From NCBI GenBank assembly GCA_022822545.1, contig JAJEBE010000043.1:1-64000 (forward strand): DNA of 64,000 bases, written 5' to 3'. The notes below the pieces were generated by a model that did no database searches, had not been told where the DNA came from, and worked only from the letters and a program-made list of their open reading frames with translations. The translations under genes were made by a program, and so were the position numbers. The stretch comes from Anaerolineae bacterium. GTDB lineage: Bacteria; Chloroflexota; Anaerolineae; Aggregatilineales; Phototrophicaceae. Below, piece by piece: positions 11,721 to 34,230 of this stretch; within the stretch, counting starts at the first letter, position 1; the number at the start of each line of letters is the position of its first letter.

Positions 11721-12762
11721 GCGCCGCGCTGACCAGCGTTGCGCTTGAGTCCCGTATAATCAGTTGCGACGGCATGATGACACGTTGAACCGGCATATCC
11801 GGTTCGGCGATGCGTTGGAGCATTAGCTTGGCCGCCTGCGCGCCGAGCGCCGTCGGATCGGTCGCGACAGTCGTCAGGCTGGGCTGCCAGAGCGAGGCTT
11901 CAACGACATTGTCAAAGCCGACTACGGCGAAGTCCTTGCCCGCTTCAATGCCGGCGGCGCGCAAGCCCAGCATGACTCCAAAGGCATTCACATCACAATA
12001 GCAAAAGGCGGCCGTGGGCGGCTCCGCCGTGTTTATAATCTGTGACACGGCGTTGAAGCCACCTCGGCGCGTGACGCTGGTCTCCCTACAAATCGCAGGG
12101 TCAAAAGCAATGCCATACTTTTCCAGCACCCGGCGATAACCGCGCAATCGACTTTGACGCGAGGGGCTTTCCACTGGGCCGCCGACGAAAGCGATCCGTT
12201 TGTGCCCCTGCTGCACTAGGTGTTCGACAGCGCGCGCCGTCCCGTTCTCGTTGTCCATGTCCACGCTGTCGAGTTCTAAGTCGCGGTAATGTTGCGTGGT
12301 CAGAACAAGCGGACAAAAATCGGCGATTTTCTGCAGCGTGTTCGGCTCCGTGCCGGTGACCGGCGATAAAATCAAGCCGTCCACGTCACGCTCCAGCATG
12401 GTCTTGACCACGCGCAACTGCTTATCGTAGTCATGAGTCGCGGTGCCCAAGAGCAGGCCGAAGTCCTCCAACGCCAACTGCGCTTCGGCGCCGGCAGTTA
12501 GTTCAGCGTTAAAGGGATTTGCCAGATCATTGATGATGAAAGCGACCGTATAGGAGCGCTGCGTGCGCAGGCTGGCAGCACGTCGGTTGTAGACGTAACC
12601 GAGTAACTCGACGGTAGCCAGAACGCGCCGGCGGGTGGGTTCCGAAATGCGCGGATTGCCCTGCAAGGCCAATGAGGCAGTGGCAATGGAAACAGATGCG
12701 GCGTCAGCGACATCTTGCAATGTGACTTTGCTGCGTCGTCTCTTATTCTCCTTCCGCGCCAT
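11713..12762 (-). CDS. LacI-family transcriptional regulator
   Basis: N-terminal HTH 'VTLQDVADAASVSIATASLALQGNPRISEPTRRRV'; periplasmic-binding-like effector domain. Confidence 0.93.
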   Translation of the reverse strand: MARKENKRRRSKVTLQDVADAASVSIATASLALQGNPRISEPTRRRVLATVELLGYVYNRRAASLRTQRSYTVAFIINDLANPFNAELTAGAEAQLALEDFGLLLGTATHDYDKQLRVVKTMLERDVDGLILSPVTGTEPNTLQKIADFCPLVLTTQHYRDLELDSVDMDNENGTARAVEHLVQQGHKRIAFVGGPVESPSRQSRLRGYRRVLEKYGIAFDPAICRETSVTRRGGFNAVSQIINTAEPPTAAFCYCDVNAFGVMLGLRAAGIEAGKDFAVVGFDNVVEASLWQPSLTTVATDPTALGAQAAKLMLQRIAEPDMPVQRVIMPSQLIIRDSSATLVSAAPN

Positions 12763-15678: not shown

Positions 15679-16677
15679 TCAAGGCAAGTCAGGCACGAAC
15701 ATATACCCCGGCTCGCCACGCTGACGCCGCAGAATCGGAATAATCTGCCGCCAGGTCCCGACCACCCCGCGCGTCGGCTCGGGCGTATTTCCCTTCACCA
15801 AGTCATGCAATTCCGCCAGATGATAGAAGGGCACAGCCGCGTACATGTGGTGCTCGATGTGATAATTCATCTGCCAATAGAGAAAGCCCAAAACCGGATT
15901 CAACAAGATCGTGCGCGTGTTCAGCCGATAATCACTCACTTCATCCGACAAGCCGATGTGCTGCGCCTCGTTGAGCAGAAACTGAAAACCGCCGCCGTAG
16001 AAGGGCGCCAGTGTCACGAGCACGGGCAGCATCCACCAGCCCAGATACAGCGAGACGGCAACGATGAATCCGTGCCCGACGAGCAGCAGGCGCGCCCAGT
16101 TGAAGAGCGCGCGGCGTCCCGCGGTCGCTTCCGGCGGGAAGAGCGCCCGCTCCCACTCGTTATCGATGTGACCGAAGCTGAGGCGAATCACCGACTTAAG
16201 CCGCAGCAGCAATCCGCGCGGATTGACGATGGCAAAGCCGAGGTAGGAGCGCAGCGTCAACTCCCGCGGCAAGACCACCTCCAGGTCATCGGGCGGGTGC
16301 AGCGTATAACGATGATGCGCTTGATGGCTCGCCCAAAACGAGATGTGGTTGTACCAACCCAGAAAGCTGTAGAGGTTGCGAAACAGGATGTTCATCGCCT
16401 GTGTCTTGAAGACCGTCTTGTGACAGAGTTCGTGGAAGCCGTTGACCAGGAAGGCATACAGCGCGCCATGCAAATAGATCAAGGCGAGCGCGATGAGCGG
16501 GTGGGCCCGACCGACGGCGACCCAGGCGATGCCGCCGCTGCACAATAGCACAGCGAGAAAACCCAGCGTCTGCAGCATGCCTTTCCGGTCGCTGCGCTGG
16601 TTCAGCCGCGCCAAGTCTTCCGCGGGGATCGGACTACGATACCATTTGATTCGCGGTTTGGCTGGCGCGTGGCTCAT
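15679..16677 (-). CDS. Membrane fatty acid desaturase family protein
   Basis: Histidine boxes HELCHK, HQAHH and HIEHH with TM segments. Start set at MSHAPAKPRIKW. Confidence 0.88.
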   Translation of the reverse strand: MSHAPAKPRIKWYRSPIPAEDLARLNQRSDRKGMLQTLGFLAVLLCSGGIAWVAVGRAHPLIALALIYLHGALYAFLVNGFHELCHKTVFKTQAMNILFRNLYSFLGWYNHISFWASHQAHHRYTLHPPDDLEVVLPRELTLRSYLGFAIVNPRGLLLRLKSVIRLSFGHIDNEWERALFPPEATAGRRALFNWARLLLVGHGFIVAVSLYLGWWMLPVLVTLAPFYGGGFQFLLNEAQHIGLSDEVSDYRLNTRTILLNPVLGFLYWQMNYHIEHHMYAAVPFYHLAELHDLVKGNTPEPTRGVVGTWRQIIPILRRQRGEPGYMFVPDLP

Positions 16678-19001: not shown

Positions 19002-19838
19002 TCAAGGAAGCTGATAAAAGCTGACGGCGTTGCCGCCCATCACCGCCGCCTGCTCATCAGCGGAAAGCGCGGCGATATACGTTTCCACGATGCCGACTAC
19101 CTCGCTGTAATTGCCGGCAAGCGTGCAGACCGGCCAATCGCTGCCGAACATAATCCGCTCGGCGCCGAAGCAATCAAAGACCACATCAAGGTAAGGCCTG
19201 TAATCATCCTGACGCCAGGCCTTCCAGGCCGCTTCGGTCACCATACCGGAAACCTTGCACCAGACATTGTCAAAAGCCGCCAGCCGCCTGATCTCGCTCG
19301 CCCAGGGTTCCAGTATGCCATCTTTGATGAAAGGCTTGGCAATATGATCCAGGACAAAGCGCTGCCCCGGAAATCGCCTGACCACATCAATGGCGATAGG
19401 CAGATGCCGTGGAAAGAGCAGCAGATCATAACTGAGATCGAAAGCTTTAAGCTTCGTCAATCCACGCAAGAAATTACCGCCTAGCATGAAGCGATCATCG
19501 GCTTCGTCATGCACAATGTGGCGTATCCCCACCATGCGCGGCTGCGCGGCATATCGCTCCAGTTGCGCCTCTACATCGTCCGCGCGCATATCCACCCAGC
19601 CAACGACGCCGCGAATGAAATCAAACTGATCGGCAAGCTCAAGCAGGTAATCGGTCTCGATCTGAATTTGCCGCGCTTGCACCGCCACCGTGCCATCCAT
19701 GCCGGATGCCGTCATCAGCGGCTGCAAGTCAGGCGGTAGGTAATCGACCTTCAGCGCCCCGCGCGACTCATCCATCCAGGGATAGTCGTCGCGGTTGTAA
19801 TGCCAAAAGTGCTGATGTGAATCGATACGCGCGCTCAT
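19002..19838 (-). CDS. Amidohydrolase, L-fuconolactonase-like
   Basis: IDSHQHFWHY, VGIRHIVHDE, FVLDHIAKP, MFGSDWPVC motifs. Confidence 0.85.
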   Translation of the reverse strand: MSARIDSHQHFWHYNRDDYPWMDESRGALKVDYLPPDLQPLMTASGMDGTVAVQARQIQIETDYLLELADQFDFIRGVVGWVDMRADDVEAQLERYAAQPRMVGIRHIVHDEADDRFMLGGNFLRGLTKLKAFDLSYDLLLFPRHLPIAIDVVRRFPGQRFVLDHIAKPFIKDGILEPWASEIRRLAAFDNVWCKVSGMVTEAAWKAWRQDDYRPYLDVVFDCFGAERIMFGSDWPVCTLAGNYSEVVGIVETYIAALSADEQAAVMGGNAVSFYQLP

Positions 19839-19893: not shown

Positions 19894-21348
19894 TTACAGG
19901 CTGGTATTGCGTGTGATCTTGAAGACGCAGGCGTGTTCGCAGGGCTTGTGATCGGGGCGTTCGATTTTGATGCCGTCAGCCGTCATCTGCCAGGGCAGCT
20001 CGCCTTCGACACCCAGCATCTCCACCGAGCGCACTTCGCCGGGATAGAGGACATGCGTCGACTCGATCACGAATTCCTTTTGGGGCCAGCCGAGCGTGAT
20101 GGCGTAGAGCACATTCCCGCGCACGGTGAAGCGAATGTCGCGCGCGGTGAAATTCAGCTTCTCTTTGAGTTCGCTGAAACCGCCGACATGGGTCATTTGC
20201 GTCGGTCCCTCGCCGTAGGTATTCCAGGGCACGGTATCGTAGATCGCCTCGCCATTCAGCCGGAGCCACGCGCCCATGCCCTCGAGGGTCGCCTTTGCTT
20301 CGTCCGGAATCGTGCCATCCGGTTTCGGTCCTACATTGAGCAGCATGAAGCCGTTCTTGCTGACGTTATCCGCCAGGTAATGCACCATCTCGGTGACGGT
20401 CTTGTACTCCGCCTCCTTGACATAGCCCCAGCCTTTTCCATCATCGACGGTGGTATCAGTGATCCATTCATAATGCGTCAACTCCGCCGTCTTGCCCAAT
20501 TCAAAGTCGAGCAAGGCGGCGCCAGGCGGGATATCGTGCCACTTGTAAGTGGCGACAACTTCCCGTCCCCATTCGGCTTCTTTGTTGTAATAGTAAGCTA
20601 GGAAATCTTGCTTGTACTGATCGTGGATGAAGCGCAGGCCTAAATCGAACCAGATATAATCCGGCTGGTAGCGTTCGACGACTTCGATCAATCGATTCTT
20701 CCAGCGATCAAGAAAGGCGAGGCTGGGCTTGTCTTGAGCGCGCCATTCCGCGAAATCAAGCCCCGGCTCGTAGGCATCAAAATCAAAATCGAGATTGTGC
20801 GGCTCGCCATAAAGCCCGGCGTAACGCGGATCGGATGTGTCGTACTCCGGCTTCCAATGCGGGAAGAACCACCAATGCTCCGCGTGGTGCATGGCGACCA
20901 TGAAGCGCATGTCTTGGGCGCGGATCGCTTTCTCGAGCTCGCCAACGACATCGCGCTTCGGTCCCATCTTGCCAGCGCACCAATCAGTATCGCTCGCGTC
21001 CCACATCGGGAAGCCATCGTGATGCTCACCGACTGGACCGGCGAACTTGGCGCCCGCGCGCTTGAACAGCTCCGCCCATTCATCAGCGTCAAAACGCTCG
21101 GCGGTGAACATCGGGATGAAGTCCTTGTAACCGAAGACAGAGGGATGCCCGTAGGTCTTGCAGTGATATTCGTACTGCGGATTACCCTCGCGGTACATGT
21201 TGTAGGGATACCAAGTGGCATTCGGTCCCTTCGCCGGCACGCAATAGATGCCCCAATGCGTATAGATGCCGAACTTCGCCTTGCGCATCCATTCGGCGGT
21301 CGGATGCGTCTTCAGCGACGCCCAGGTCGCCTCGTAGCGCTTTGTCAT
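19894..21348 (-). CDS. Alpha-L-fucosidase (GH29), copy 1
   Basis: WMRKAKFGIYTHWGIYCVP, EHHDGFPMWDS-like, PDYIWFDLGLRF (nucleophile region), NVSKNGFMLLNVGPKPDGTIP. Confidence 0.92.
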   Translation of the reverse strand: MTKRYEATWASLKTHPTAEWMRKAKFGIYTHWGIYCVPAKGPNATWYPYNMYREGNPQYEYHCKTYGHPSVFGYKDFIPMFTAERFDADEWAELFKRAGAKFAGPVGEHHDGFPMWDASDTDWCAGKMGPKRDVVGELEKAIRAQDMRFMVAMHHAEHWWFFPHWKPEYDTSDPRYAGLYGEPHNLDFDFDAYEPGLDFAEWRAQDKPSLAFLDRWKNRLIEVVERYQPDYIWFDLGLRFIHDQYKQDFLAYYYNKEAEWGREVVATYKWHDIPPGAALLDFELGKTAELTHYEWITDTTVDDGKGWGYVKEAEYKTVTEMVHYLADNVSKNGFMLLNVGPKPDGTIPDEAKATLEGMGAWLRLNGEAIYDTVPWNTYGEGPTQMTHVGGFSELKEKLNFTARDIRFTVRGNVLYAITLGWPQKEFVIESTHVLYPGEVRSVEMLGVEGELPWQMTADGIKIERPDHKPCEHACVFKITRNTSL

Positions 21349-21422
21349 GTCGATTCGCCTCCAGAAGCTTGGTCAAAAGACATTGAAAACGATTCCGTTA
21401 AGGGCGAGGCAACAGGTCACTC

Positions 21423-22877
21423 CTACATGCTCGTATTCCGCGTGATCTTGAAGACACAGGCGTGTTCGCAGGGCTTGCGATCGGGGCGTTGGATTTTGAG
21501 GCCGTCAGCCGTCATCTGCCAGGGCAGCTCGCCATCGACGCCGAGCAACTCCACCGAGCGCACCTCGCCGGGATACAGCGCGTGCGTCGATTCGATGACG
21601 AATTCCTTCTCGGGCCATCCAAGCGTGATGGCATAAAGCACATTGCCACGGACAGTGAAGCGAATGTCTTTAGCCGTAAATTGCAGCTTCTCCTTTGTAT
21701 CGCTGAAGGCGCCGACATGGGTCATTTGCGTCGGACCCTCGCCGTAGGTATTCCAGGGCACGGTATCATAGATCGCCTCGCCGTTTAGACGCAGCCACTC
21801 GCCCATGCCCTCGAGGATGGCCTTCGACTCGTCCGGAATGGTCCCGTCCGGCTTGGGACCGACATTGAGCAGCATGAAGCCGTTCTTACTGACGTTATCG
21901 GCCAGGTAATGCACCATCTCCGTGACAGTCTTGTACTCCGTTTCCTTGATATAGCCCCAACCCTGACCGTCATCCACGGTCGTATCGGTGATCCACTCAT
22001 AGTGAGTAAGCTCGGCGGTCTTGCCCAACTCGAAATCGAGCAGGGCGGCGCCGGGCGGGATATCATGCCACTTGTAGGTGGCGACCACCTCGCGTCCCCA
22101 CTCGGCTTCCTTGTTGTAGTAATAGGCGAGGAAGTCTTGCTTGTACTGATCGTGCACGAATCGCAGGCCAAAATCGAACCAGATGTAGTCTGGTTCATAG
22201 CGCTCAACCACTTCCACCAACCGGTTCTTCCAGCGCTCAAGAAAGGCTTTGCTCGGTTTGTCTTGCGCCCGCCATTCGGCGTGATCGTGCCCGCGGCCGT
22301 AGCCATCAAATGCAAAATCGAGATTATGCGGCTCGCCATAAAGCCCGGCGTAGCGCGGATCGGAAGTGTCGTACTCCGACTTCCAATGCGGGAAGAACCA
22401 CCAATTCTCCGCGTGGTGCATCGCCACCATGAAGCGCATGTCCTGGGCGCGGATCGCTTTCTCCAATTCGCCGACGACATCGCGCTTCGGTCCCATCTTG
22501 CCGGCGCACCAATCGGTATCGCTGGCATCCCACATCGGGAAGCCATCGTGATGCTCGGCGACCGGACCGGCAAAGCGCGCGCCCGCTCGCTTGAAAAGCT
22601 CCGCCCATTCATCCGCGTCAAAATGCTCGGCGCTGAACATCGGGATGAAGTCCTTGTATCCAAACTTGGAAGGATGCCCATAGGTCCTGCAATGGTATTC
22701 ATATTGCGGTGTGCCTTCGCGATACATATTGTAGGGATACCAGGTGACGTTTGGTCCGGTAGCCGGCACACAGTAGATGCCCCAATGCGTGTAAATGCCG
22801 AACTTTGCCCGGCGCATCCATTCGGCGGTGGGGTGGGTCTTCAGCGAGGCCCAACTCGCTTCGTATGTTTTTGGCAT
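21423..22877 (-). CDS. Alpha-L-fucosidase (GH29), copy 2
   Basis: Colinear 484-aa paralog of the adjacent GH29; 53 of the first 60 residues identical by direct count. Confidence 0.92.
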   Translation of the reverse strand: MPKTYEASWASLKTHPTAEWMRRAKFGIYTHWGIYCVPATGPNVTWYPYNMYREGTPQYEYHCRTYGHPSKFGYKDFIPMFSAEHFDADEWAELFKRAGARFAGPVAEHHDGFPMWDASDTDWCAGKMGPKRDVVGELEKAIRAQDMRFMVAMHHAENWWFFPHWKSEYDTSDPRYAGLYGEPHNLDFAFDGYGRGHDHAEWRAQDKPSKAFLERWKNRLVEVVERYEPDYIWFDFGLRFVHDQYKQDFLAYYYNKEAEWGREVVATYKWHDIPPGAALLDFELGKTAELTHYEWITDTTVDDGQGWGYIKETEYKTVTEMVHYLADNVSKNGFMLLNVGPKPDGTIPDESKAILEGMGEWLRLNGEAIYDTVPWNTYGEGPTQMTHVGAFSDTKEKLQFTAKDIRFTVRGNVLYAITLGWPEKEFVIESTHALYPGEVRSVELLGVDGELPWQMTADGLKIQRPDRKPCEHACVFKITRNTSM

Positions 22878-23019: not shown

Positions 23020-24015
23020 TCAGGTCGAATGCCGCGCGACAAGTTGGCAACTAAAGAGCGCCGACGGAATCTCGCTATCGCCGTCGTTGAGCGCCTTCAG
23101 CACTTTGTGGGCCGCCGTCTCCCCGATGGCGAAGGTCGGCTGCCGCAAAACTGTCAGCGGCGGATTCGAGACCTGCGCCCAGGGATGGTCGTCAAAGCCA
23201 ACAATGGCGACATCATCGGGGCAATTCAGGCCCATCTCCTGTAAACCCATCAGCGCGCCCAGGCTGAGCAGATTGTTGCAGATGAAGACCGCCCGCGGCC
23301 GCTCCGCCTGCCCCATCAACCGCTGCATGGCGTGTTTGCCATCTTCGATAGTCAAGGGGCTGCTGACGCTCCATTCAGGGCGTATCGGCAAGTTCGCCTC
23401 CCGCAACACCTCTTCATAACCCGCCAGACGCTCGCGCATGGTCGAAAGGCGCTGAAAGCCCGACAGTATGCCGATCTCAAGATAGCCGCGCTCCACCAGG
23501 TGCCGCGTCCCGAGCGCGGCGCTGTCGTGATTATTGACGCCGACGTAAGGCGACTTGGCATCGTCGAAGGTGCGGTCAAGCATGACGATGGGGATATTGA
23601 GTTTCGCCGCTTCGTTGAGAACATCCCAATTCTGGCTGGTGGCGGCGGCGATGATCCCGTCCACCCCCTGGCGCAATAGGATATCTATATAATACTCTTC
23701 GCGCTCCAGCACCTCATTGGTATTGCAAAGCATCAAGCTGTAGTTGTTGGCGATCAAGACATCTTCAATCCCGCGCATGATCTCGCCGAAGAAGGTGTTG
23801 GTAACATCGGAAACGATCAGCCCGATAATGCGCGTGCGCTGAGTCGTGAGGCTGCGCGCCGCCACATTGGGGCGGTAGCCGAGGGCGCGGATGGCATCGC
23901 GGACACGCGCCTTGGTGGCCTCCTCAACGAAGCGCGTCTCATTGATGACATGCGAGACCGTGGCTTTGGAGACGCCCGCTTGCTCTGCGACATCGCGCAT
24001 GGTGATTCGTTTCAT
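23020..24015 (-). CDS. LacI-family transcriptional regulator
   Basis: MKRITMRDVAEQAGVSKATVSHVINETRFV HTH; LacI/PBP-like core. Confidence 0.94.
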   Translation of the reverse strand: MKRITMRDVAEQAGVSKATVSHVINETRFVEEATKARVRDAIRALGYRPNVAARSLTTQRTRIIGLIVSDVTNTFFGEIMRGIEDVLIANNYSLMLCNTNEVLEREEYYIDILLRQGVDGIIAAATSQNWDVLNEAAKLNIPIVMLDRTFDDAKSPYVGVNNHDSAALGTRHLVERGYLEIGILSGFQRLSTMRERLAGYEEVLREANLPIRPEWSVSSPLTIEDGKHAMQRLMGQAERPRAVFICNNLLSLGALMGLQEMGLNCPDDVAIVGFDDHPWAQVSNPPLTVLRQPTFAIGETAAHKVLKALNDGDSEIPSALFSCQLVARHST

Positions 24016-24032: not shown

Positions 24033-24054
24033 CATGTAACCTGTTACGCAACCG
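24033..24054 (-). promoter_or_regulatory. Putative LacI-family operator (autoregulatory)
   Basis: Minus-strand CGGTTGCGTAACAGGTTACATG; 18/22 identical to the element at 32471-32492; 9 nt after the -10. Confidence 0.65.
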
Positions 24055-24063
24055 ATTCATCAA

Positions 24064-24092
24064 AGTGTAGTCCATCGGCCGACATTCGTCAA
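24064..24092 (-). promoter_or_regulatory. Sigma70-like promoter of the LacI gene
   Basis: Minus strand TTGACG, 17-nt spacer, TACACT. Confidence 0.65.
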
Positions 24093-24202
24093 ATCAAGGC
24101 GGCTCAGCCTCCTTTTTCAAGCCGCCGATTGGGTAGCCGAACTGCTTCAATATTTTGCCCGAGCGCGGCAGCTATTATCGCCGGTTACGCGCCCTACGGC
24201 TG

Positions 24203-24231
24203 TTGCGGCGTATTTTAGGCTGTGTTATAGT
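24203..24231 (+). promoter_or_regulatory. Sigma70-like promoter of the catabolic operon
   Basis: TTGCGG (24203-24208), 17-nt spacer, TATAGT (24226-24231). Confidence 0.55.
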
Positions 24232-24246
24232 CCCTCGTCATGTCAG

Positions 24247-24266
24247 AAAACCGATTGCTTGACCGG
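24247..24266 (+). promoter_or_regulatory. Putative third copy of the operator
   Basis: AAAACCGATTGCTTGACCGG; 15/20 identical to ATAACCGATTGCGCAACCGA at 32471-32490, sharing ACCGATTGC. Confidence 0.45.
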
Positions 24267-24289
24267 GGCATTTGTCCGCTGGAGCGTCC

Positions 24290-25324
24290 ATGAAACAAGT
24301 TTCAGTCACTGGCAAAAGGCGGGCGGGCATTGAAACTACCCCACGGCCGAGCGCTCGCGACAACTGGGTTGTCGTCAAGGTGCAAGTCGCGCCGATGTGC
24401 ACCGAATATAAAGCCTTCGCCGAAGGTGTTAACCACCCCGTTTTCGGGCATGAAGCGGCCGGCGAAGTCGTCGAAGTCGCCCAGCCCGGCCGTGTGAAAG
24501 CCGGCGACCGCGTGGTGGTGATGCCCTTGAACACCTGCGGGAAATGCGCCCTCTGCCTCCGAGGCGACTATATTCATTGCCAAGACGGCCTCGATTACAT
24601 CGCTTTGCACGGCAGCCAGACGGGGCGCGGCACGATGGCCCAATACCTGCTCAAGCAAGACTGGATGCTGCTGCCCATTCCGGCGGGCATGAGTTACGAA
24701 CATGCCTCAATGGCTTGCTGCGGCTTGGGGCCCGCCTTCGGCGCCTTTCAGACGCTGGGCGTCGATGCACACGATACCGTGCTCATCACCGGCTTGGGAC
24801 CGGTCGGCTTGGGCGGTGTCATCAACGCGCGCTATCGGGGGGCGCGCGTGATCGGCGTCGATTCCAATGCCTACCGGGCTAACTTGGCGCGTGAGTTGGG
24901 GGCGGAAGCGGTGATCGATCCTTCCTCCGATGACGCCTTGGGCCGGATTATCCGGCTGACAGCCGGCGAACGCGGCGTCGACAAGGCGGTCGATTGCTCG
25001 GGCGTGGTCGCGGCGCATCGCCTCTGCATTGACGCGACGCGGCGTAAAGGGCAAATCGCCTTCGTCGGCGAATGCAACGATGATACCCCGCTGCGCATCA
25101 GTCCGGATATGATCCGCAAAGGGCTGACCCTGACGGGCAGTTGGCATTACAATCTGGCGGATTCACCGCGCATGCTGAAAATGATCGCCGACACCGGCGG
25201 GCAATTGGACAAGCTAATCACGCACCGATTTTCGATTGCTGATATTCAGAGCGCCTGGGAGACTCAGCTATCCGGGCAATGTGGCAAAGTGATTTTACAG
25301 CCTTGGGAGGGAAGCGATGTATAA
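24290..25324 (+). CDS. Zinc-binding dehydrogenase (MDR superfamily)
   Basis: GHEAAGEVVEVAQPG, CGKCALCLRGDYIHC, GLGPVGLGGV; start MKQVSVTGKRR. Confidence 0.9.
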   Translation: MKQVSVTGKRRAGIETTPRPSARDNWVVVKVQVAPMCTEYKAFAEGVNHPVFGHEAAGEVVEVAQPGRVKAGDRVVVMPLNTCGKCALCLRGDYIHCQDGLDYIALHGSQTGRGTMAQYLLKQDWMLLPIPAGMSYEHASMACCGLGPAFGAFQTLGVDAHDTVLITGLGPVGLGGVINARYRGARVIGVDSNAYRANLARELGAEAVIDPSSDDALGRIIRLTAGERGVDKAVDCSGVVAAHRLCIDATRRKGQIAFVGECNDDTPLRISPDMIRKGLTLTGSWHYNLADSPRMLKMIADTGGQLDKLITHRFSIADIQSAWETQLSGQCGKVILQPWEGSDV

Positions 25325-26339
25325 ATCGGTCATCATCGGCGTCGGCGGCGGGCGGGCGCATGGGCACGCGGATGCCTACCAGCATGTCAAACGCGGCCGC
25401 GTGGTGGCGGTCTGCGATATACGGCAAGAACCGCTGGACGAGTTCGGCGACAAGTTTGATGTGAGCGCGCGCTATACCGATTACCGCGAGATGTTCGAGA
25501 AAGAAAAGCCCGATCTGGTTCAAGTGAGCACACCGCCGGATACCCGCCTCGAAATCATTCTGGCGGCGGAAGAAGCCGGCGTGCCCGCTATCATCGTCGA
25601 GAAACCGCTAGCGATTCAAGGCGAGGATTATCAAGCGATCCGTGACTTCGCCGCGGGGAAGCCTCGCATCAAAGTCGCTATCAATCATCAACTGCAATTT
25701 CATCCGCGGCGACGGCAGTTGCAACAATTGGCGCTGGATGGCGCTATCGGAGATATCCGCTTCATTGAGGCAAGTTCCGGCATGAATTTGGCCTACCAAG
25801 GCACCCATTCGCTGCAAGCCATCGGCGCATTTAACCCAGCGAGACCGACGACCGTCTTCGGGCAAGTCGCCGGCGCGGACGGATTGCAGCCCAATATACG
25901 CGAGCATTACGCGCCCGACCAAAGCCTGGCGGCGGTTGAATACGAAAATGGCGTGCAAGCGACCTTGCGCTGCGGCGAAAACGCGCCACGCGTGCCACGC
26001 GGCGACGCCATCTATCAACACAAACGCATCGCCGTTTATGGCATGAGCGGATACCTGCACTGGACCATGTGGGGCTGGGAGACATTCATCAAAGGCGTGT
26101 ACGAGAGCGGCGAGCATGAGTATCCCGCGGAGGATGTCCTGGGGCAGGCCGCGATGTGCGAGGCGATGTTCGACTGGCTGGAAGATGACAGCGCTGTGCA
26201 TCCGCTGAATCTGGATCGCGCCCTGGTCGACTTCAATGTGATACTGGCGCTTTACGCCAGCGCACTGAACCATCAGGTCATTGAGCTGCCCTACGAGCCA
26301 GAAGCGAAATTGGTGAAGAAATTGCGGGACGCTCTCTAA
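25317..26339 (+). CDS. Gfo/Idh/MocA-family oxidoreductase
   Basis: N-terminal Rossmann (IIGVGGGRAHGHADA), VEKPLAI motif typical of the family. Confidence 0.9.
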   Translation: MYKSVIIGVGGGRAHGHADAYQHVKRGRVVAVCDIRQEPLDEFGDKFDVSARYTDYREMFEKEKPDLVQVSTPPDTRLEIILAAEEAGVPAIIVEKPLAIQGEDYQAIRDFAAGKPRIKVAINHQLQFHPRRRQLQQLALDGAIGDIRFIEASSGMNLAYQGTHSLQAIGAFNPARPTTVFGQVAGADGLQPNIREHYAPDQSLAAVEYENGVQATLRCGENAPRVPRGDAIYQHKRIAVYGMSGYLHWTMWGWETFIKGVYESGEHEYPAEDVLGQAAMCEAMFDWLEDDSAVHPLNLDRALVDFNVILALYASALNHQVIELPYEPEAKLVKKLRDAL

Positions 26340-26342
26340 ACC

Positions 26343-27359
26343 ATGGAAACAGAGAGTCGAACGACACGCATTCTGGTCGCGATTCGTCCGAGCTTGTACA
26401 GAGTCCTTTTCAACGCTGAAGCGGAAAATCAACTGGCATCGCTGGGCAAAATAACCTGCCAAAGCAGTGACGACATTCTCACATCAAGCGATCTGGCGAA
26501 CCTGGTCCCCGGGCAGGACATCGTCATCACCGGCTGGGGCACACCCGTCTTCAACGCGGAGGTGCTGGCAGCCGCCGATCGCCTCCGGCTAATCGCCCAT
26601 ACGGCCGGCACGATAAAGCGAATGCTGCCGCCTCCTGTCTTCACCGACAGCCGACGCGTCACACATGCCGCCGCCGCTATGGCTACGACCGTCGCCGAGA
26701 CAACCCTGCTCCTCATCATGCTCGTTCTGCGGCAATTTCACAAGATCGACCGTGTTTTCCATGAACATGGCTGGGCAGCAGCCAAGTCGATAGCCATCGG
26801 CAATGAAATAGCGGCAAAACGCATCGGGGTCATCGGCGCCGGTCATACCGGGCGGGCAGTCATAAAGCGACTGAAGGCCGTGGAAGCCGAGATCTGGCTG
26901 TACGATCCATATATGAGCGAGGCGGCCGCGACCCAACTCGGCACGCGAAAAGTGGCGCTAGAGCCATTAATGCGGGGCTGCTCAATCATTACATTGCAAG
27001 CGCCATCGACGGCTGAAACCTACCGCATGATCGGCGCTGAGCAACTGCGTTGGCTGCAAGACGGCGCGGTTTTCATCAACACGGCGCGGACACATCTCGT
27101 CGATGAGGCAGCGTTGCTGGCGGAATTGCAGTCGGGGCGGATTCAAGCGGCATTGGATGTTTTTGAGCATGAGCCACTGCCGGATGACAGCCTCTTTCGC
27201 GGGTTGGGCAACGTCATCCTCACGCCACATGTCGCCTCACATACGCTGGAGACGCGCCTGCGCCAAGGGCAAATCGTGACCGATGAAGTGGCGGACTTCC
27301 TGCGCGCGGGCAGACTGCGCTACGAAGTCACGCATGATATGCTCGACATGATGGCATGA
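26343..27359 (+). CDS. D-isomer-specific 2-hydroxyacid dehydrogenase
   Basis: IGVIGAGHTGRAVIKRL NAD motif; FINTARTHLVDEAALLAEL; DVFEHEPLPDDS. Confidence 0.88.
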   Translation: METESRTTRILVAIRPSLYRVLFNAEAENQLASLGKITCQSSDDILTSSDLANLVPGQDIVITGWGTPVFNAEVLAAADRLRLIAHTAGTIKRMLPPPVFTDSRRVTHAAAAMATTVAETTLLLIMLVLRQFHKIDRVFHEHGWAAAKSIAIGNEIAAKRIGVIGAGHTGRAVIKRLKAVEAEIWLYDPYMSEAAATQLGTRKVALEPLMRGCSIITLQAPSTAETYRMIGAEQLRWLQDGAVFINTARTHLVDEAALLAELQSGRIQAALDVFEHEPLPDDSLFRGLGNVILTPHVASHTLETRLRQGQIVTDEVADFLRAGRLRYEVTHDMLDMMA

Positions 27360-27377
27360 TAAATTGAGGAGCTAAAA

Positions 27378-28106
27378 ATGGGAGACCTCTCCGGCAAAAC
27401 AATCATCGTGACCGGCGCGAGCAGCGGCTTCGGCGAGGCGATCGCCATTGCCAGCGCTGAAGCAGGCGCGAATGTCAGCCTGGTCGCGCGGCGCAAGGAC
27501 GCGCTGGAGGCAGTGGCGCGAGCGGCGGAAGCGCGGGGCGGCAAGACGCTGGTCTGCCCGGCCGATGTCAGTGATGACGCGCAGATTTACGCCGCCCTGG
27601 AAAAGACGCGCGCGGGCTTCGGTCCTATTGATGTCTTGGTGAACAACGCCGGCACAAATATTACCCAGCGCTCGATAATCGATACCACCGCCGAGCAATG
27701 GCGCGAGCTACTGGAAATCAACTTGTCGAGCGCCTTTGTCTTCACCAAAGCGGTATTGCCGGAGATGAAAGCGCGCGGCGATGGCTTGATCGTCAATATC
27801 GCATCGCGCGCCGGCATGTTCCCGAGCTTGTTGGCCGGCGTCGGTTACAGCACATCGAAGATCGGCATGGAAGCACTCAACACCGTCACCAATGAAGAAG
27901 GCAATCCCTTCGGCGTCCGTGCCTGTCTCTTTAATCCGGGTGCGGGCAACACGCCGATAATAGACCGTCGGCCGGTTAAGTTCAGCCAGGAAGCGAAAAT
28001 GAAAATGATTCAACCTGAGGACATCGCCGCGACTGTCGTCTTCCTCGCCTGCTTGCCGCCGCGCGTCAACATTGATCTCATCTCCATGATGCCCACCAAG
28101 AGCTAA
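27378..28106 (+). CDS. Short-chain dehydrogenase/reductase (SDR)
   Basis: TGASSGFGEAIA; NNAGTN; active site S...YSTSK (GVGYSTSKIGME). Confidence 0.92.
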   Translation: MGDLSGKTIIVTGASSGFGEAIAIASAEAGANVSLVARRKDALEAVARAAEARGGKTLVCPADVSDDAQIYAALEKTRAGFGPIDVLVNNAGTNITQRSIIDTTAEQWRELLEINLSSAFVFTKAVLPEMKARGDGLIVNIASRAGMFPSLLAGVGYSTSKIGMEALNTVTNEEGNPFGVRACLFNPGAGNTPIIDRRPVKFSQEAKMKMIQPEDIAATVVFLACLPPRVNIDLISMMPTKS

Positions 28107-28122
28107 AGAAGTGGAGCCAGCC

Positions 28123-28917
28123 ATGAATAAATTGGCGCTATTCGTCAAACCCTGGAAGACGCTGAGCCTGCCGCAACTGGCGCGGCATGTCAGGTCCCTG
28201 GGCTTTGATCTGATCGAATTGCCCATCCGCCCCGGCTTTCAAGTTGAGCCGGCTGAAATCGAAAGAGCTTTGCCCGCCGCCGTCAAGCTTCTGGCGGACG
28301 AAGGTATCCGCGTCCTCAATGTGACGGCGGATATCGCGCTCGACGATGAACGCTTGTACAGCGCTTGCGCCTCCGCCGGCACGAAAATGAATCGCGTCAT
28401 GTTCTGGCAAGGCCAGGACGACTACTGGACCGCCGAAGCCACTGCCCGTCGCCAATTGGATGCTGCCCTGCCCTTCTGCGAGCGATACGGCATTCAGATC
28501 GGCATACAGAATCACTCGCGCCGCTTCGTGCCCGTGAATGAAATGGGCGCCCATAATCTGCTCAAAGATTATGATCCGCGCCATATCGCCTTGGTCTGGG
28601 ATCCGGCGCATAATTCGCTTGAAGGTATGGATAGCGACGCCGCGCTCGATATCGTAGCGCCTTATCTTTGTGTGGTGAACTTAAAGAATGCCTACTGGCG
28701 GCGGATCAGCGGGCCGGAAGCGAACATCGCCGAGTGGAGCATCTACTGGACATCCGGCGCGCAGGGACGGGCCTCCTGGGCCCGCGTCATCGCCAAACTG
28801 AAAGCGATCAACTACAGCGGTCCGATCTGCTTCTCGGCCGAATATACGGATGAGGAGCGGGTGGATGAGTTGATCGTGAGAGACTTGGCTTTTGCGCGAA
28901 ACTTGTTGGAAGCATGA
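28123..28917 (+). CDS. Sugar phosphate isomerase/epimerase (xylose isomerase-like TIM barrel)
   Basis: GIQIGIQNHSRRFV, HIALVWDPAHNSLEG; ends the + strand operon. Confidence 0.8.
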   Translation: MNKLALFVKPWKTLSLPQLARHVRSLGFDLIELPIRPGFQVEPAEIERALPAAVKLLADEGIRVLNVTADIALDDERLYSACASAGTKMNRVMFWQGQDDYWTAEATARRQLDAALPFCERYGIQIGIQNHSRRFVPVNEMGAHNLLKDYDPRHIALVWDPAHNSLEGMDSDAALDIVAPYLCVVNLKNAYWRRISGPEANIAEWSIYWTSGAQGRASWARVIAKLKAINYSGPICFSAEYTDEERVDELIVRDLAFARNLLEA

Positions 28918-28965
28918 ATCTGCCCAGCGAGACATCGTAGCCCGCAAACTCATTAAATGCGAGAA

Positions 28966-28992
28966 ACGGGCAACCCAAGAGTCCTCCCCTAC
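28966..28992. repeat. Degenerate copy of the palindrome at 7244-7269
   Basis: ACGGGCAACCCAAGAGTCCTCCCCTAC aligns to ACGGGCGAGACAAGTCTCGCCCCTAC with one indel and a few mismatches. Confidence 0.45.
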
Positions 28993-29005
28993 ATTTAACT
29001 GTGGT

Positions 29006-29048
29006 CAAGAAAAAAACATACGGGCAAGCCTGAGACCTGCCCGAATGT
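29006..29048 (-). terminator. Rho-independent terminator of the minus-strand ABC operon
   Basis: ACATaCGGGCA...TGCCCGaATGT hairpin; on the minus strand followed by TTTTTTTCTTGACC. Confidence 0.7.
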
Positions 29049-29079
29049 CAAATCTTACTATGTCGCTAGTGCGCTACAA

Positions 29080-30426
29080 CTAGCCGCCCAGCAGTTCGTT
29101 GGTCTGGTCGTGCGCGCGTTGCACGACGACTGAGGCGTCGCGTTCCTCGCCCGTCCAGAGCAGGTCCATATTGGCCACCCAAACGGAGGACTCCCATTCC
29201 AGGTATTTCGAATGGTAGGGCGGGTGGACGCCATCGCGCGCGCCGATGACCGAGAAGACCTCATGATAGGCATCGGCGTAGGGGGCGTCATCGGGTGCGG
29301 CGCAGTTATGGAACTCGGACTGGCTGACTAGTGCCGCGCCCATGGCGGCGGTGCGGCAGAGGTGATCCGGGTTCGCCAGCGTGAAGCGAATCAACTCATA
29401 AGACAGATCGGGATGCGCCGCCGAAGTCGGGATCGAGAAAGCCGAACCGCCGATGAAGTTGTAACGTCCGGCCGGACCGGTCGGCGTCGGCACGACCGTC
29501 CAATTGAAGCTGTCGCCGGCCAACTCCCACATGCGGGAAGCGGCGTCGTTCAGCGCGTAGTGCATAGCAACGTTGCCGTTGGCGAAGAGGAATTCGGTCG
29601 TGAAACCGGAAGCGGCGATGCTTTCAGCCGTCGGGTGCGCGCCCGAATCCCAGAGCAGGTCGGCCATCCATTGCAGGGCGGCGGTCGTCTCCGGCGAATT
29701 CATCACCGATGAGGTGATCTCTTCGTTGAACAACTCGCCGCCGAAGCTCTTGATGATCCAGTAAGCGCCGCCGGCGCCGCGGCCGACGCTGACCAGATTG
29801 CTGATGCCCCAGATATCGGTATCGCCATCATCGTCGGTATCCTGCGTGAGGGCGATCGCCAACTCGGTGAACTCTTCGAAGCTGGTATGCTCGCCAGGCG
29901 GCTCCAAGCCGGCTTCCTCAAAGAGATCGAGATTGATATAGAGACCACCCGGCGCCAAGTCATAAGGAATGGCGTACTGGCTGCCCTGGTAGTTGAAGGC
30001 GTCGACTTGGGAAGCGACGAACTTATCGGGCCAGCCGGGGATGGGGCAGGATTCCAGGTAACTGTCGAGGTTCAGCGCCCAGCCGTTGGCGGCGAAGGTA
30101 TCGTTGCGGGTGTCATGCATCCAGGCCATATCAATCTCGGCGCCGCCAGCCAACTGCGCCGGCAGGGTCGTCCAATAATCGCCCCAGTTTACGCCCGTGT
30201 TGAGGATCTGTTCCACGTTGGGATAGTATTCGCCGAAGAATTCGTCGAAAGCCAGCAAGAACTTGTCGACCTCGCCGGGACCTTCCCAGCCGGTGATGGT
30301 GATGGCGCCCGCCATGTCACCATCGACGGTGCCGCAGGTCCAGTCGGTCATGTCCTGCGCCGAGGCCGCAAAGCCGAAGCTGAGCAGCGCCAGGATGGTC
30401 ATTAGAAATGCGATTTTGCGAATCAT
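29080..30426 (-). CDS. Carbohydrate ABC transporter, substrate-binding protein
   Basis: Sec signal peptide (MIRKIAFLMTILALLSFGFAASAQ); ITITGWEGPGEVDKFLLAFDEFF; adjacent to two permeases. Confidence 0.88.
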   Translation of the reverse strand: MIRKIAFLMTILALLSFGFAASAQDMTDWTCGTVDGDMAGAITITGWEGPGEVDKFLLAFDEFFGEYYPNVEQILNTGVNWGDYWTTLPAQLAGGAEIDMAWMHDTRNDTFAANGWALNLDSYLESCPIPGWPDKFVASQVDAFNYQGSQYAIPYDLAPGGLYINLDLFEEAGLEPPGEHTSFEEFTELAIALTQDTDDDGDTDIWGISNLVSVGRGAGGAYWIIKSFGGELFNEEITSSVMNSPETTAALQWMADLLWDSGAHPTAESIAASGFTTEFLFANGNVAMHYALNDAASRMWELAGDSFNWTVVPTPTGPAGRYNFIGGSAFSIPTSAAHPDLSYELIRFTLANPDHLCRTAAMGAALVSQSEFHNCAAPDDAPYADAYHEVFSVIGARDGVHPPYHSKYLEWESSVWVANMDLLWTGEERDASVVVQRAHDQTNELLGG

Positions 30427-30482
30427 CTGATTGTCCTTTCACATTTGGCAATTATTTCCGAAGCGAAGCATAAGGTCGGTCG

Positions 30483-31361
30483 CTAGCCACCTCCTTTGAT
30501 GCCGCTGGTGACAATGCCGCGGACATAATACTTTTGCCCCAATACAAAAGCCATGAGCACGGGAATGACAACAAAAGTGGCCGCCGCCATGATGAGGTGC
30601 CATGGCGTCCTCATGCCGGACTGATTCTGCAAGGATGCGAGAATCAGCGGCAAAGTCTTGACCTTGGGCTTGCCCAGAATAATCAGGGGCCACAGGAACA
30701 TATTCCAGGTATTGACGAAGGTGAAGATAGCCAGCGTGGCCAGCGCCGGCTTGGTCAAGGGCAGGATGATGAGCCAATAGGTGCGAAAGAAGCCACAGCC
30801 ATCGATGCGCGCCGCGTCCTCCAACTCGCGCGGAATCGTGACCATGAATTGGCGCATCATGAAGGTGCCCCAAGGCGTGAACAAGAAGGGGATGATTACC
30901 GCCTGCAATGTGCTGACCCAGCCGAAGGCGCGCATCTGCACATAGAGCGGGATCATCAAAACTATGAAGGGCAGCATCATCAGCGAGATGTAGAGCAGGA
31001 AGATCTTGTCCCGTCCGGGGAAACGCAGCCGCGCGAAAGCATAACCAGCCAGGCTGGCGGTGAATAACTGCCCCAACACCACCGCCGCCGCCACAATGGC
31101 GCTGTTGAGGAAGCCGAGATCGAAATAGGTCATCGTCCAGGCTTCGACATAATTCTCCGGCTGCCAAACTTCGGGGATGAATGTGGGCGGGTAGGTGTAT
31201 ATGCCGCGGATATCCTTAAATGAATTGGCGACCATCCAGGCGAAGGGCAGGATGAAGATGATGCCCACGACCGACAAGACCACGTAAAGGACTAGGTCCG
31301 TCAGAATCTTGGTCTGCTTCTGGCCGAAGAGGCTGCCTTTTCTCGCGCTCGCGGTAGCCAT
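30483..31361 (-). CDS. Carbohydrate ABC transporter permease (MalG-type)
   Basis: TM segments; EAA loop 'EDAARIDGCGFFRTYWLIILPLTKPA'. Confidence 0.92.
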   Translation of the reverse strand: MATASARKGSLFGQKQTKILTDLVLYVVLSVVGIIFILPFAWMVANSFKDIRGIYTYPPTFIPEVWQPENYVEAWTMTYFDLGFLNSAIVAAAVVLGQLFTASLAGYAFARLRFPGRDKIFLLYISLMMLPFIVLMIPLYVQMRAFGWVSTLQAVIIPFLFTPWGTFMMRQFMVTIPRELEDAARIDGCGFFRTYWLIILPLTKPALATLAIFTFVNTWNMFLWPLIILGKPKVKTLPLILASLQNQSGMRTPWHLIMAAATFVVIPVLMAFVLGQKYYVRGIVTSGIKGGG

Positions 31362-31385
31362 CGCTTTTATCCTGTTCCGCCGCCC

Positions 31386-32363
31386 TTATTCATCTTCCTC
31401 AAATCCAAACACCCAGCGCCGCGCCAATTGCCATTGAATGATGGTGATGATGAGAATGATCACGAATAACACTGCCGCCAGCGCCGCGCCATAACCCATT
31501 TTGAAAAAGCTAAAGGCATTCTGGAATATGTACAAGGTGAGCGGCGTGGTCGCGTGGGCTGGTCCACCCTCGGTCAACACATAGAATTGATCGAAAGATT
31601 GGAAGGCTCCGATCAGCGAGGTGACGACCACAAAGAAAATCGCTGGCGAGAGCATCGGCAAGGTCACGTAGCGCATGCGTTGCCAGCCGCTGGCGCCATC
31701 AATGGAAGCGGCTTCATAGTACTCTTCCGGGATGCCTTGCAAGCCCGCCAGCAAAATAAGCATGGCGAAGCCGATGCCCTGCCAGTTGCTCATGATGATG
31801 ACGCTCGGCATAGCCCATTTTGTATCGTGAATCCATTTGGGCCCGTCGATGCCGAATATCTCCAGAATGTGGTTGATCATGCCGATTTCCGGCTGGTAGA
31901 TCCAGCGCCAGATAGTCGCCGCCGCCACCGTCAGCGTGATCTGCGGCAAGAAATAGACGGTGCGGAAGAAGATGATCCCGCGCATCTTGCGGTTGAGCGC
32001 CAGCGCCAGCCAGAAGGCGATGAAGATGCCGGTCGGCACGGCGACGAAGGTGTAATAGAAGCTATTGCCCAGCGATTTCCAAAAGAGCCGGTCATTGACC
32101 ATCGTTTCGAAGTTCTTTAAGCCGACGAATTCGGGCGCTTTCGCCAGGCTCCAATCGGTGAGCATGATGTAGAAAGCGAATAATATTGGGAAAAGCATGA
32201 ATACGATGAAGCCGACCAAGTTTGGCAGCAGGAAAAGATAACCCGCGATGGTCTCTTCTCGGCGCAAGCCGGTGAAGGCGTGTCTGAGTTGGGCGATGGC
32301 GCCCGGTTTTTGTGGCGCGCGCTTGGGCGCGACGGCGGACTCAGCAGCCACTCGAGCCTCCAA
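31386..32363 (-). CDS. Carbohydrate ABC transporter permease (MalF-type)
   Basis: TM segments; EAA loop 'YEAASIDGASGWQRMRYVTLPMLSP'. Confidence 0.92.
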   Translation of the reverse strand: MEARVAAESAVAPKRAPQKPGAIAQLRHAFTGLRREETIAGYLFLLPNLVGFIVFMLFPILFAFYIMLTDWSLAKAPEFVGLKNFETMVNDRLFWKSLGNSFYYTFVAVPTGIFIAFWLALALNRKMRGIIFFRTVYFLPQITLTVAAATIWRWIYQPEIGMINHILEIFGIDGPKWIHDTKWAMPSVIIMSNWQGIGFAMLILLAGLQGIPEEYYEAASIDGASGWQRMRYVTLPMLSPAIFFVVVTSLIGAFQSFDQFYVLTEGGPAHATTPLTLYIFQNAFSFFKMGYGAALAAVLFVIILIITIIQWQLARRWVFGFEEDE

Positions 32364-32470
32364 GCCTGGCAGCCAGCGCGCGGCGGCGAGTATATTCGGG
32401 AGAAGGCGCAGGTGTAGTCATAGAAGAATCAGAGACTTGTCTAAGCCACTATATTTGGCTGTCGCAGGTC

Positions 32471-32492
32471 ATATAACCGATTGCGCAACCGA
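32471..32492 (-). promoter_or_regulatory. Putative LacI-family operator of the ABC-transporter operon
   Basis: ATATAACCGATTGCGCAACCGA containing palindrome TTGCGCAA; starts 7 nt after the minus-strand -10. Confidence 0.65.
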
Positions 32493-32498
32493 AACACC

Positions 32499-32527
32499 AC
32501 TCTAGCACGGCGCGCAGAAGTTGTCAA
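32499..32527 (-). promoter_or_regulatory. Sigma70-like promoter of the ABC-transporter operon
   Basis: Minus strand TTGACA, 17-nt spacer, TAGAGT. Confidence 0.7.
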
Positions 32528-32589: not shown

Positions 32590-34230
32590 TCAATCGCGCG
32601 AAATGGTGATCAGCGTATTAGGCGCGAGCCCACTCACCTCGCTGTGAGCGCCATCGCCCCAGCGTATGCTCAGGCGCTGCGGCTCTTCGTCGGCGGGAAA
32701 GCCGAAATGAACCCGGCTGCTGTCGCCGGAGAGGTAGCCGCTCAAGGCGGTCACCGCGCGCTGATATATGCCTTCATCAGTCTCCAAGCTTAGCTGCGCG
32801 CCGATGGCTGTGCCCTCGTTCCAACGCAAGTCCACTTCGACCGCAGCGCCGGCGCAGAGCCGATTCTCGAAGACTTTCGCCGGTGTCAGCAGGTTGTTGA
32901 CCACCACATCCAGATCGCCATCGTTGTCCAGGTCCGCGAGAGACATGCCGCGCCCGCTTGCCCGGTCATTCAAGCCCCAGCCCGGCTGCCGCTCGAAGCG
33001 CTCGCCGGCAAAGTTGCGATAAGCCAGGTTCTCTTCAACCAGCTCGTTGTTGGGCAGATGCGAGAATAGCTCAACCGAGATCATGCCGTTGACAACATAG
33101 AGGTCTTGATAGCCATCGTTGTCCAAGTCGCCGAATTTCGCCGACCAACTCCAGCCGGTGCCATCCAGCCGCAGGTCACGCGCGATATTTGCCGCGCCGC
33201 CGCGCCCGCTGTAGAGCACATTTTCCATGATTTGTGGATCGCCATCGACATGGGGCATAGCCATCATCATGTCCATCACCGGCTGCCACTGCGCCATGGT
33301 AGTCGCGTCATCGGCATAAGGTTTCATATCGACAGCGAAGATTTCAGGCAAGCCGTCATTATCCAGGTCGGCGGCATCGTAGCTCATGGTGCTGTGCGGC
33401 ATGACCTCAAGCGGCGCCAATTCTTGCCAGTCGCCATCGACAAAGCGAAAGCTGCGGTCCGGCACGGCGAAGTCGTTACCGATGGTGATCTCCGGCTCGC
33501 CCTCTTGGTTCAGGCGCGTCAGAATCGCCAGCGTATTGGAACGGTCGGCGAGGCGGCGCGCGCGGAAGCTGCCTCCACGATTTTCATAATAAATGACGCC
33601 TGAACGCGGCGCCGTCTGCCCCAGCAATTTTTCGTTCTCAACATCATAAGAGCCCGTCACCAGGTCGAGGTCGCCATCGCCATCGGCATCAAGCCAGTTC
33701 ATGGCGTAGCCAATATAGGTGACGCCGCTGAGCACTTGCGCGGCGAAGGTCTCGTCGCCGCGGTTGCGCCAGTAGATTGGCGCCGCCGCTTGCTGCGTGA
33801 AGACGATATCCAGCCAGCCATCGCCATCGACATCAACCGTTGCGGCTGCGCGCGCCGGAGTACGCGATGGCAGCGCCAAACGCTCAAAGCGCAAATCGCC
33901 GCGATTCCAGAATACATGACTGTCGCCCGCCAGATTGGCCAAGACTATATCCAGCCAGCCGTCCCGGTTGAGGTCGCCAACCGCGAGACCAGCGCCGTTG
34001 CTGTCGTAATAGCCGACCGGCTCCGCGCTTGCAGTCGTGATGTGGTCAAGCTCATGCCCGATGAAGCCTCCGCTGCAGGCGGCGCGGGCGCGCAGGGACT
34101 GAGTGTCCACCGCGACCGGCGCATGCAGGCGGAGCGCGTGAGCGGCCGAGGCGACAAGAAGCAAGCAGAAAATAGCAGTTAGGCGTATAGGTCGGGTACG
34201 GCGCATGGCGTTGCCTCGGTCATTGGCCAC
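32590..34230 (-). CDS. FG-GAP/VCBS repeat protein with ASPIC/UnbV-like C-terminus
   Basis: Repeated DLDNDGxxD/DVDGDGWLDIV calcium-binding-type motifs; C-terminal 'AIGAQLSLETDEGIYQRAVTALSGYLSGDSSRVHFGFP'; signal peptide. Confidence 0.88.
   Translation of the reverse strand: MANDRGNAMRRTRPIRLTAIFCLLLVASAAHALRLHAPVAVDTQSLRARAACSGGFIGHELDHITTASAEPVGYYDSNGAGLAVGDLNRDGWLDIVLANLAGDSHVFWNRGDLRFERLALPSRTPARAAATVDVDGDGWLDIVFTQQAAAPIYWRNRGDETFAAQVLSGVTYIGYAMNWLDADGDGDLDLVTGSYDVENEKLLGQTAPRSGVIYYENRGGSFRARRLADRSNTLAILTRLNQEGEPEITIGNDFAVPDRSFRFVDGDWQELAPLEVMPHSTMSYDAADLDNDGLPEIFAVDMKPYADDATTMAQWQPVMDMMMAMPHVDGDPQIMENVLYSGRGGAANIARDLRLDGTGWSWSAKFGDLDNDGYQDLYVVNGMISVELFSHLPNNELVEENLAYRNFAGERFERQPGWGLNDRASGRGMSLADLDNDGDLDVVVNNLLTPAKVFENRLCAGAAVEVDLRWNEGTAIGAQLSLETDEGIYQRAVTALSGYLSGDSSRVHFGFPADEEPQRLSIRWGDGAHSEVSGLAPNTLITISRD

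Follow-up and report, generated by a model that had tools for sequence, protein, structure and literature searches.

The first 64,000 nucleotides of contig JAJEBE010000043.1 of an Anaerolineae bacterium (GenBank assembly GCA_022822545.1; this whole stretch is hereafter the window) encode a LacI-family protein at 23020-24015 that we predict to be a local, sugar-responsive repressor of its own operon, of a divergent catabolic operon and of a CUT1 ATP-binding cassette (ABC) transporter operon, a reading to which we assign a probability of about 0.87. Each of the three promoters carries a short palindromic box at a near-fixed position downstream of its -10 element, and these boxes are conserved among genomes that keep the regulator and absent from the operator position where it is missing. 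The original prediction for this locus had proposed that LacI regulates itself and both operons; this set of targets is strongly supported in silico by the boxes, their near-fixed distance from the -10 elements and their absence without lacI, and we infer that the sign of the control is repression. Our comparisons extend from the window to the whole genome (4.27 Mb in 62 contigs) and to a set of 34 genomes of the genus.

Boxes at three promoters

The following features carry the argument.

23020-24015, minus: lacI, LacI-family regulator of 331 aa (Pfam LacI and Peripla_BP_3)
24272-28917, plus: catabolic (adh) operon, encoding Zn alcohol dehydrogenase, Gfo/Idh/MocA protein, D-2-hydroxyacid dehydrogenase, SDR and xylose-isomerase-like TIM barrel (Pfam; genus-wide synteny)
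29080-32363, minus: CUT1 ABC transporter operon, encoding solute-binding protein and two permeases (Pfam SBP_bac_1, BPD_transp_1)
24064-24092, minus: predicted lacI promoter TTGACG-N17-TACACT, kept in orthologs
24203-24231, plus: predicted catabolic operon promoter TTGCGG-N17-TATAGT, same elements in several orthologs
32499-32527, minus: predicted transporter promoter TTGACA-N17-TAGAGT, conserved
24050-24057, minus: lacI box 1, core AATCGGTT, with arm AATCGGTTGCG (24047-24057); in 23/24 genomes with lacI
24038-24045, minus: lacI box 2 with core AACAGGTT, its centre 12 bp away from that of box 1; AACAGGTT in 17/24 genomes with lacI, AACGCGTT or similar in the rest
24249-24256, minus: putative adh operator core, AATCGGTT on the minus strand (AACCGATT on plus), inverted relative to transcription; 17/18 genomes with lacI, 0/3 without
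32475-32482, minus: transporter box 2 (dominant), core AATCGGTT; 21/21 genomes with lacI
32487-32494, minus: transporter box 1 with core TTTCGGTT, its centre 12 bp away from that of box 2; TCGGTTGCG kept in 8/21 genomes, degenerate elsewhere

The protein at 23020-24015 combines an N-terminal helix-turn-helix (HTH) domain (PF00356, 68.9 bits against a Pfam cut-off of 27) with a C-terminal periplasmic-binding-protein-like ligand domain (PF13377, Peripla_BP_3, 118.9 bits against 26.5). Its top NCBIfam and PDB matches are PurR and RbsR, at scores below the NCBIfam equivalog cut-offs (254 versus 501 bits and 250 versus 531 bits, respectively). Orthologs with 82-95% identity occur in 23 other genomes of the genus, giving 24 genomes with lacI, and a close ortholog is absent from the remaining 10.

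Two 22-mers had been reported at 24033-24054 and 32470-32491, both on the minus strand, and we find them there, identical at 18 of 22 positions. They begin 9 nt past TACACT at lacI and 7 nt past TAGAGT at the transporter operon, with TTGACG and TTGACA, respectively, 17 bp upstream of these elements. A third copy, AAAACCGATTGCTTGACCGG, lies at 24247-24266, after TTGCGG-N17-TATAGT; it had been called weaker, but it is no weaker in its core: AAAACCGATTGC, in inverted orientation, agrees at 11 of 12 positions with the transporter site read as its reverse complement. The joint 22-mer pattern, which was built from the two sites themselves, matches twice in the window against 0.02 expected, and when up to three mismatches are allowed in the whole genome it recovers only those two sites and one 3-mismatch match. 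The motif is not frequent outside promoters, an outcome in favour of the original prediction. Genome-wide site searches used IUPAC patterns; one with a 16-mer at three mismatches was too loose to be informative (449 matches, with more for the reversed control), and an exact 14-mer match at 16374-16387 was dropped as a site, since it lies inside a desaturase coding sequence rather than in a promoter.

Comparison of upstream regions across the genus replaces the 22-mer as the operator unit. What is conserved is a shorter box, GYAAYC-GGTT, where the hyphen marks a C-G centre, with a PurR-type half-site, CGCAAYC, on one side, and the 22-mer alignment superimposes two such boxes. This unit has the form expected of a LacI-family operator, a palindrome of even length with CG at its center and close to promoters, and one half of each box is far better kept than the other. 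LacI's recognition helix closely resembles that of PurR, its best PDB match (TVSHVIN followed by TRFV, as in PurR), and this, together with the PurR/RbsR best matches, fits the CGCAAYC half-site, which we take to resemble the half-site of the PurR operator.

The boxes follow the regulator

We scored each upstream region by its best match to CGYAAYCGRTT, requiring at least 10 of 11 positions within 250 nt. By this rule lacI itself is preceded by a box in 24/24 genomes that have the gene. At the transporter operon, whose orthologs occur in 29 of the 34 genomes, a box is found in 21/21 genomes with lacI and 1/5 without; at the adh operon the counts are 17/18 and 0/3, where the match counted in G004, G013 and G025 is the nearby lacI box and each of these genomes also has an adh box of its own. 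The sole transporter match without lacI, in G010, overlaps the -35 element, outside the operator position. Shuffled sequences gave 1-3%, and control genes 0-2 matches each, except for a gene encoding an FG-GAP protein that we return to below. Fisher values of 0.0003 and 0.003 accompany these comparisons and ignore the relatedness of the genomes. The boxes are kept upstream of orthologous operons, which again favours the original prediction.

A longer pattern gives the same picture. The 20-bp double box AATCGGTTGCGYAAYMGGTT, at zero or one mismatch, occurs in 23/24 genomes with lacI and 0/10 without, and its matches sit only at the promoters of lacI, the transporter and a second transporter, on contig C25, described below. 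In a tree built from the transporter proteins, G010 falls beside the window genome and G013 (support 0.999), yet it has neither the regulator nor either operator while retaining both promoters. Its position in the tree, together with promoters kept without operators, makes this look like a loss of regulator and operators, and G010 is a neat internal control.

A model for control, and the sugar it may serve

We propose that a ligand-free LacI dimer would occupy GYAAYC-GGTT boxes just downstream of the -10 element (core 4-18 nt after it), where it would block the lacI operon, including its GH29 and lactonase-like genes, the divergent catabolic operon and the CUT1 operon. LacI would in turn come off the DNA in response to a sugar that the GH29 enzymes set free, or to a metabolite of this sugar. 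Two sets of genes behind lacI bear on the identity of this sugar.

19894-22877, minus: two GH29 genes, 19894-21348 and 21423-22877 (Pfam Alpha_L_fucos)
19002-19838, minus: amidohydrolase, L-fucono-1,5-lactonase-like (NF052480, 287 bits against a cut-off of 400; PDB 4dlf, 219 bits)

Synteny is strong across the genus, running from fucA2 and lacI through the divergent adh-gfo-dhgA-sdr-tim operon to sbp-perm2-perm1. The GH29 genes are probably transcribed together with lacI, to judge solely from their adjacency. We sought boxes directly upstream of fucA2, fucA1 and the amidohydrolase gene and found essentially none, with the GH29 pair boxless in the window genome; since such boxes were essentially not found, we assume that the GH29 and amidohydrolase genes share a transcript with lacI. 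Elsewhere in the window, a second LacI-family regulator (11713-12762, minus) lies divergent from a 6-phosphogluconate dehydrogenase gene, an arrangement that is syntenic in several relatives.

The regulon had been assigned to L-fucose, which the GH29 genes and the lactonase-like amidohydrolase make plausible, but L-galactose or a fucosylated oligosaccharide fits as well. A distinct possibility, though not the reading we favor, is a regulon for L-galactose or for some other L-sugar glycan, its mechanism unchanged: the GH29 proteins score equally against two of their closest structures, the alpha-L-fucosidase 7snk and the exo-alpha-L-galactosidase 7ljj, and an aldo/keto reductase on contig C21 weakly matches L-galactose dehydrogenase. 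These equal scores cannot separate L-galactose from L-fucose, whereas GH29 enzymes are mostly alpha-L-fucosidases and the amidohydrolase is closest to L-fuconolactonase, though below the family cut-off. No complete fuconate pathway was seen, and no enolase-superfamily gene that might encode L-fuconate dehydratase occurs among the annotated open reading frames (ORFs) of the locus at ~15.7-36 kb, the rest of the genome having been left unsearched. As far as sequence goes, a glycan of L-fucose or of L-galactose is a plausible substrate.

Layout of the predicted operators

At lacI and at the transporter, each 22-mer resolves into two overlapping units with centers 12 bp apart, and the dominant unit differs between the two promoters. 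Box 1 dominates at lacI, where AATCGGTTRCG is kept in 23/24 genomes and is followed by AACAGGTT in 17 and by AACGCGTT or similar sequence in the rest. Box 2 dominates at the transporter, where GYAATCGGTTT is kept in 21/21 genomes and is preceded by TCGGTTGCG in 8. Upstream of adh a single, inverted box is retained (AAACCGATTGC). Distances to the -10 element are nearly constant across genomes: the two cores begin 6 and 18 nt after it at lacI, the first of these at 6 nt in almost all genomes, and 4 and about 16 nt after it at the transporter, with the dominant box at 15-16 nt. The adh core begins 17-18 nt after the -10 element wherever a promoter scan detects the promoter, and at 17 nt in the window genome. 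At these distances the boxes cover the expected transcription start and the early part of the leader, where a bound protein would block initiation or promoter clearance.

The original prediction implied another geometry, in which the operator is the central palindrome of the 22-mer, CGGTTGC-GCAACNG, bound by one dimer and centered on GC-GC. This is the best central-CG inverted repeat at lacI, and in many genomes its symmetry is perfect across GTTGCGCAAC. We nevertheless consider this geometry improbable: the palindrome is absent at adh, at the transporter it decays in many genomes while AATCGGTT persists, and the promoter of a further GH29 gene outside the window carries only CGCAACCGGTT. With GYAAYC-GGTT as the preferred unit, the overlapping boxes may be shared by one dimer or occupied by two. 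It is tempting to think that the two boxes function together as a double operator bound in an unusual way, and that the dominant box shifts in evolution by 12 bp between promoters (about 5 versus about 17 nt after the -10 element), but we hold this to be rather unlikely.

A wider candidate regulon and the question of paralogs

In the whole genome CGYAAYCGRTT matches 27 times, against 8 for its reversed control, and three sites outside the window are convincing by context; we located the upstream regions of their orthologs by tblastn anchors. First, at C25:83851-83870 a perfect double box lies upstream of a CUT2-type sugar transporter; G013 has it too, and the two genomes that have this transporter without lacI lack it. 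Second, at C21:4777-4787 a box lies 6 nt after the TTGACA-N17-TAGACT promoter of another GH29 gene, divergent from the aldo/keto reductase gene; it is kept in 9/22 genomes with lacI and 0/8 without, three of the latter retaining the promoter with the box replaced. Third, at C56:9620 a box precedes the gene for a CUT1 binding protein (10/20 genomes with lacI, 0/6 without). Only G001, G004 and G011 carry boxes at a CUT1 binding-protein promoter on C21; the window genome has none there. We regard the match at the beginning of menC (C57) as chance. The candidate regulon may thus be larger than the three operons first proposed, with two more transporters and another, unlinked GH29 operon joining lineage by lineage. 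Not all of these three sites need answer to the LacI at 23020-24015, because the genome encodes 14 LacI-type HTHs and similar palindromes occur elsewhere in relatives.

The unlinked cluster L180 (G000:C21:1-14000), together with L294, holds several GH29 genes, arylsulfatase-like, aldo/keto reductase and MFS-like genes and a CUT1 transporter, and is probably a cluster for sulfated or fucosylated glycans; no LacI gene lies on the L180/C21 contig. A diverged Cpn60/GroEL-like chaperonin (PF00118, 84 and 120 bits) also recurs beside transporters: at 9180-10835 (plus) in the window its gene lies directly downstream of a CUT1 operon, and at L296:2936-4543 in a relative it is divergent from another CUT1 binding-protein gene.

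Several observations weigh against our assignment of the boxes to the LacI at 23020-24015. Besides the number of LacI-type HTHs, 11-mers similar to the box occur elsewhere in the genome, and the adh promoter of G021 is boxless although lacI is present. The genomes that have these promoters without lacI represent about two independent lineages (at the transporter, all those scored apart from G010 form one clade), so that the Fisher values overstate the support. Finally, the box-like sequence TTGCGCAACCGATT lies in the -35/spacer region of the FG-GAP gene promoter in relatives, including G010, which lacks lacI. This gene adjoins the transporter and has a box-like site in 14/17 relatives with lacI, the match in at least G002 apparently being the transporter box. 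Apart from any question of boxes, FG-GAP/UnbV_ASPIC repeat proteins adjoin CUT1 transporter operons twice in the genome (window 32590-34230, minus; L294:10501-12111). In other genomes, full palindromes CGCAAYCGRTTGCG (L299:5793, L300:5201, L301:2984) fall inside ORFs or at their margins, so that not all such matches are operators.

The 14 LacI-type HTHs, box-like sites in other contexts and an excess of CGYAAYCGRTT over its reversed control also in several genomes without lacI could mean that the boxes belong to another LacI paralog, or to several that share the half-site, and that the neighboring LacI is not their regulator or not the only one. We judge this quite improbable, since boxes at these promoters go together with the 23020-24015 ortholog, the most conserved box belongs to the lacI gene itself, and G010 has lost regulator and operators together while keeping the promoters. 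That the similarity arose by chance, or is inherited promoter sequence without a regulatory role, is barely credible even though the two 22-mers were a post hoc choice out of 64 kb and the compared genomes are related, as the core is common to three different promoters, persists as its flanking sequence changes, is nearly absent upstream of most control genes and is lost along with the regulator.

Relation to known systems

The system we predict, a local repressor of sugar-use genes encoded at 23020-24015, is of an ordinary kind, and it is well supported as such. Local autoregulated LacI-family regulons are known from reconstructions in hundreds of genomes (Ravcheev et al. 2014, PMC4052901), and ours resembles them in its even central-CG palindrome, in sites ~30-140 nt from the start codon, in predicted autoregulation, in the neighboring catabolic and ABC transporter operons and, as in some of them, in tandem sites. 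It differs in that its regulator forms a new ortholog group, from a Chloroflexota genus that is uncultured, and in the unequal conservation of its box halves. E. coli PurR and RbsR are the closest solved or curated relatives, and the recognition helix is as in PurR, but the scores fall far below the cut-offs, and the predicted targets are sugar rather than purine genes. Like the FucR regulons for L-fucose and L-fuconate (PMC5507952, PMC4746261), the locus sets a regulator beside sugar-use genes and ABC transporters, and it could use fucose oxidatively by way of a lactone; unlike them, it shows no fuconate dehydratase in the locus, and its regulator may belong to a different orthologous group.

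To judge from record names, the genomes of this genus appear to come largely from marine sponges, and carbohydrate degradation and an enrichment in GH29 are reported for such symbionts (PMC6306507, PMC8163846); we found nothing direct in the literature on sponge Chloroflexota that combines fucosidase and ABC transporter. The locus offers a concrete, testable regulon for the use of L-sugar glycans, and places an unlinked GH29 operon and two transporters under a single candidate regulator.

Of most interest is the overlap of the operators at a 12-bp spacing, a geometry already noted as unexplained for the LacI family. Overlapping sites ~13 bp apart are reported for GntR at gntKU and upstream of about 110 other operons, with a binding mode that is hard to reconcile with structures (PMC4052901). 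Here as at the GntR operators two LacI-type boxes overlap with centers about one helical turn apart, but the spacing is 12 rather than ~13 bp and the dominant box varies by promoter. With the partner box decaying in some lineages, these sites form a usable series for the question of how LacI dimers bind, which does not imply that both boxes are bound. Should the boxes prove to be a functional double operator, the genus would provide a series of natural mutants with which to study the overlapping LacI operators that PMC4052901 left unexplained.

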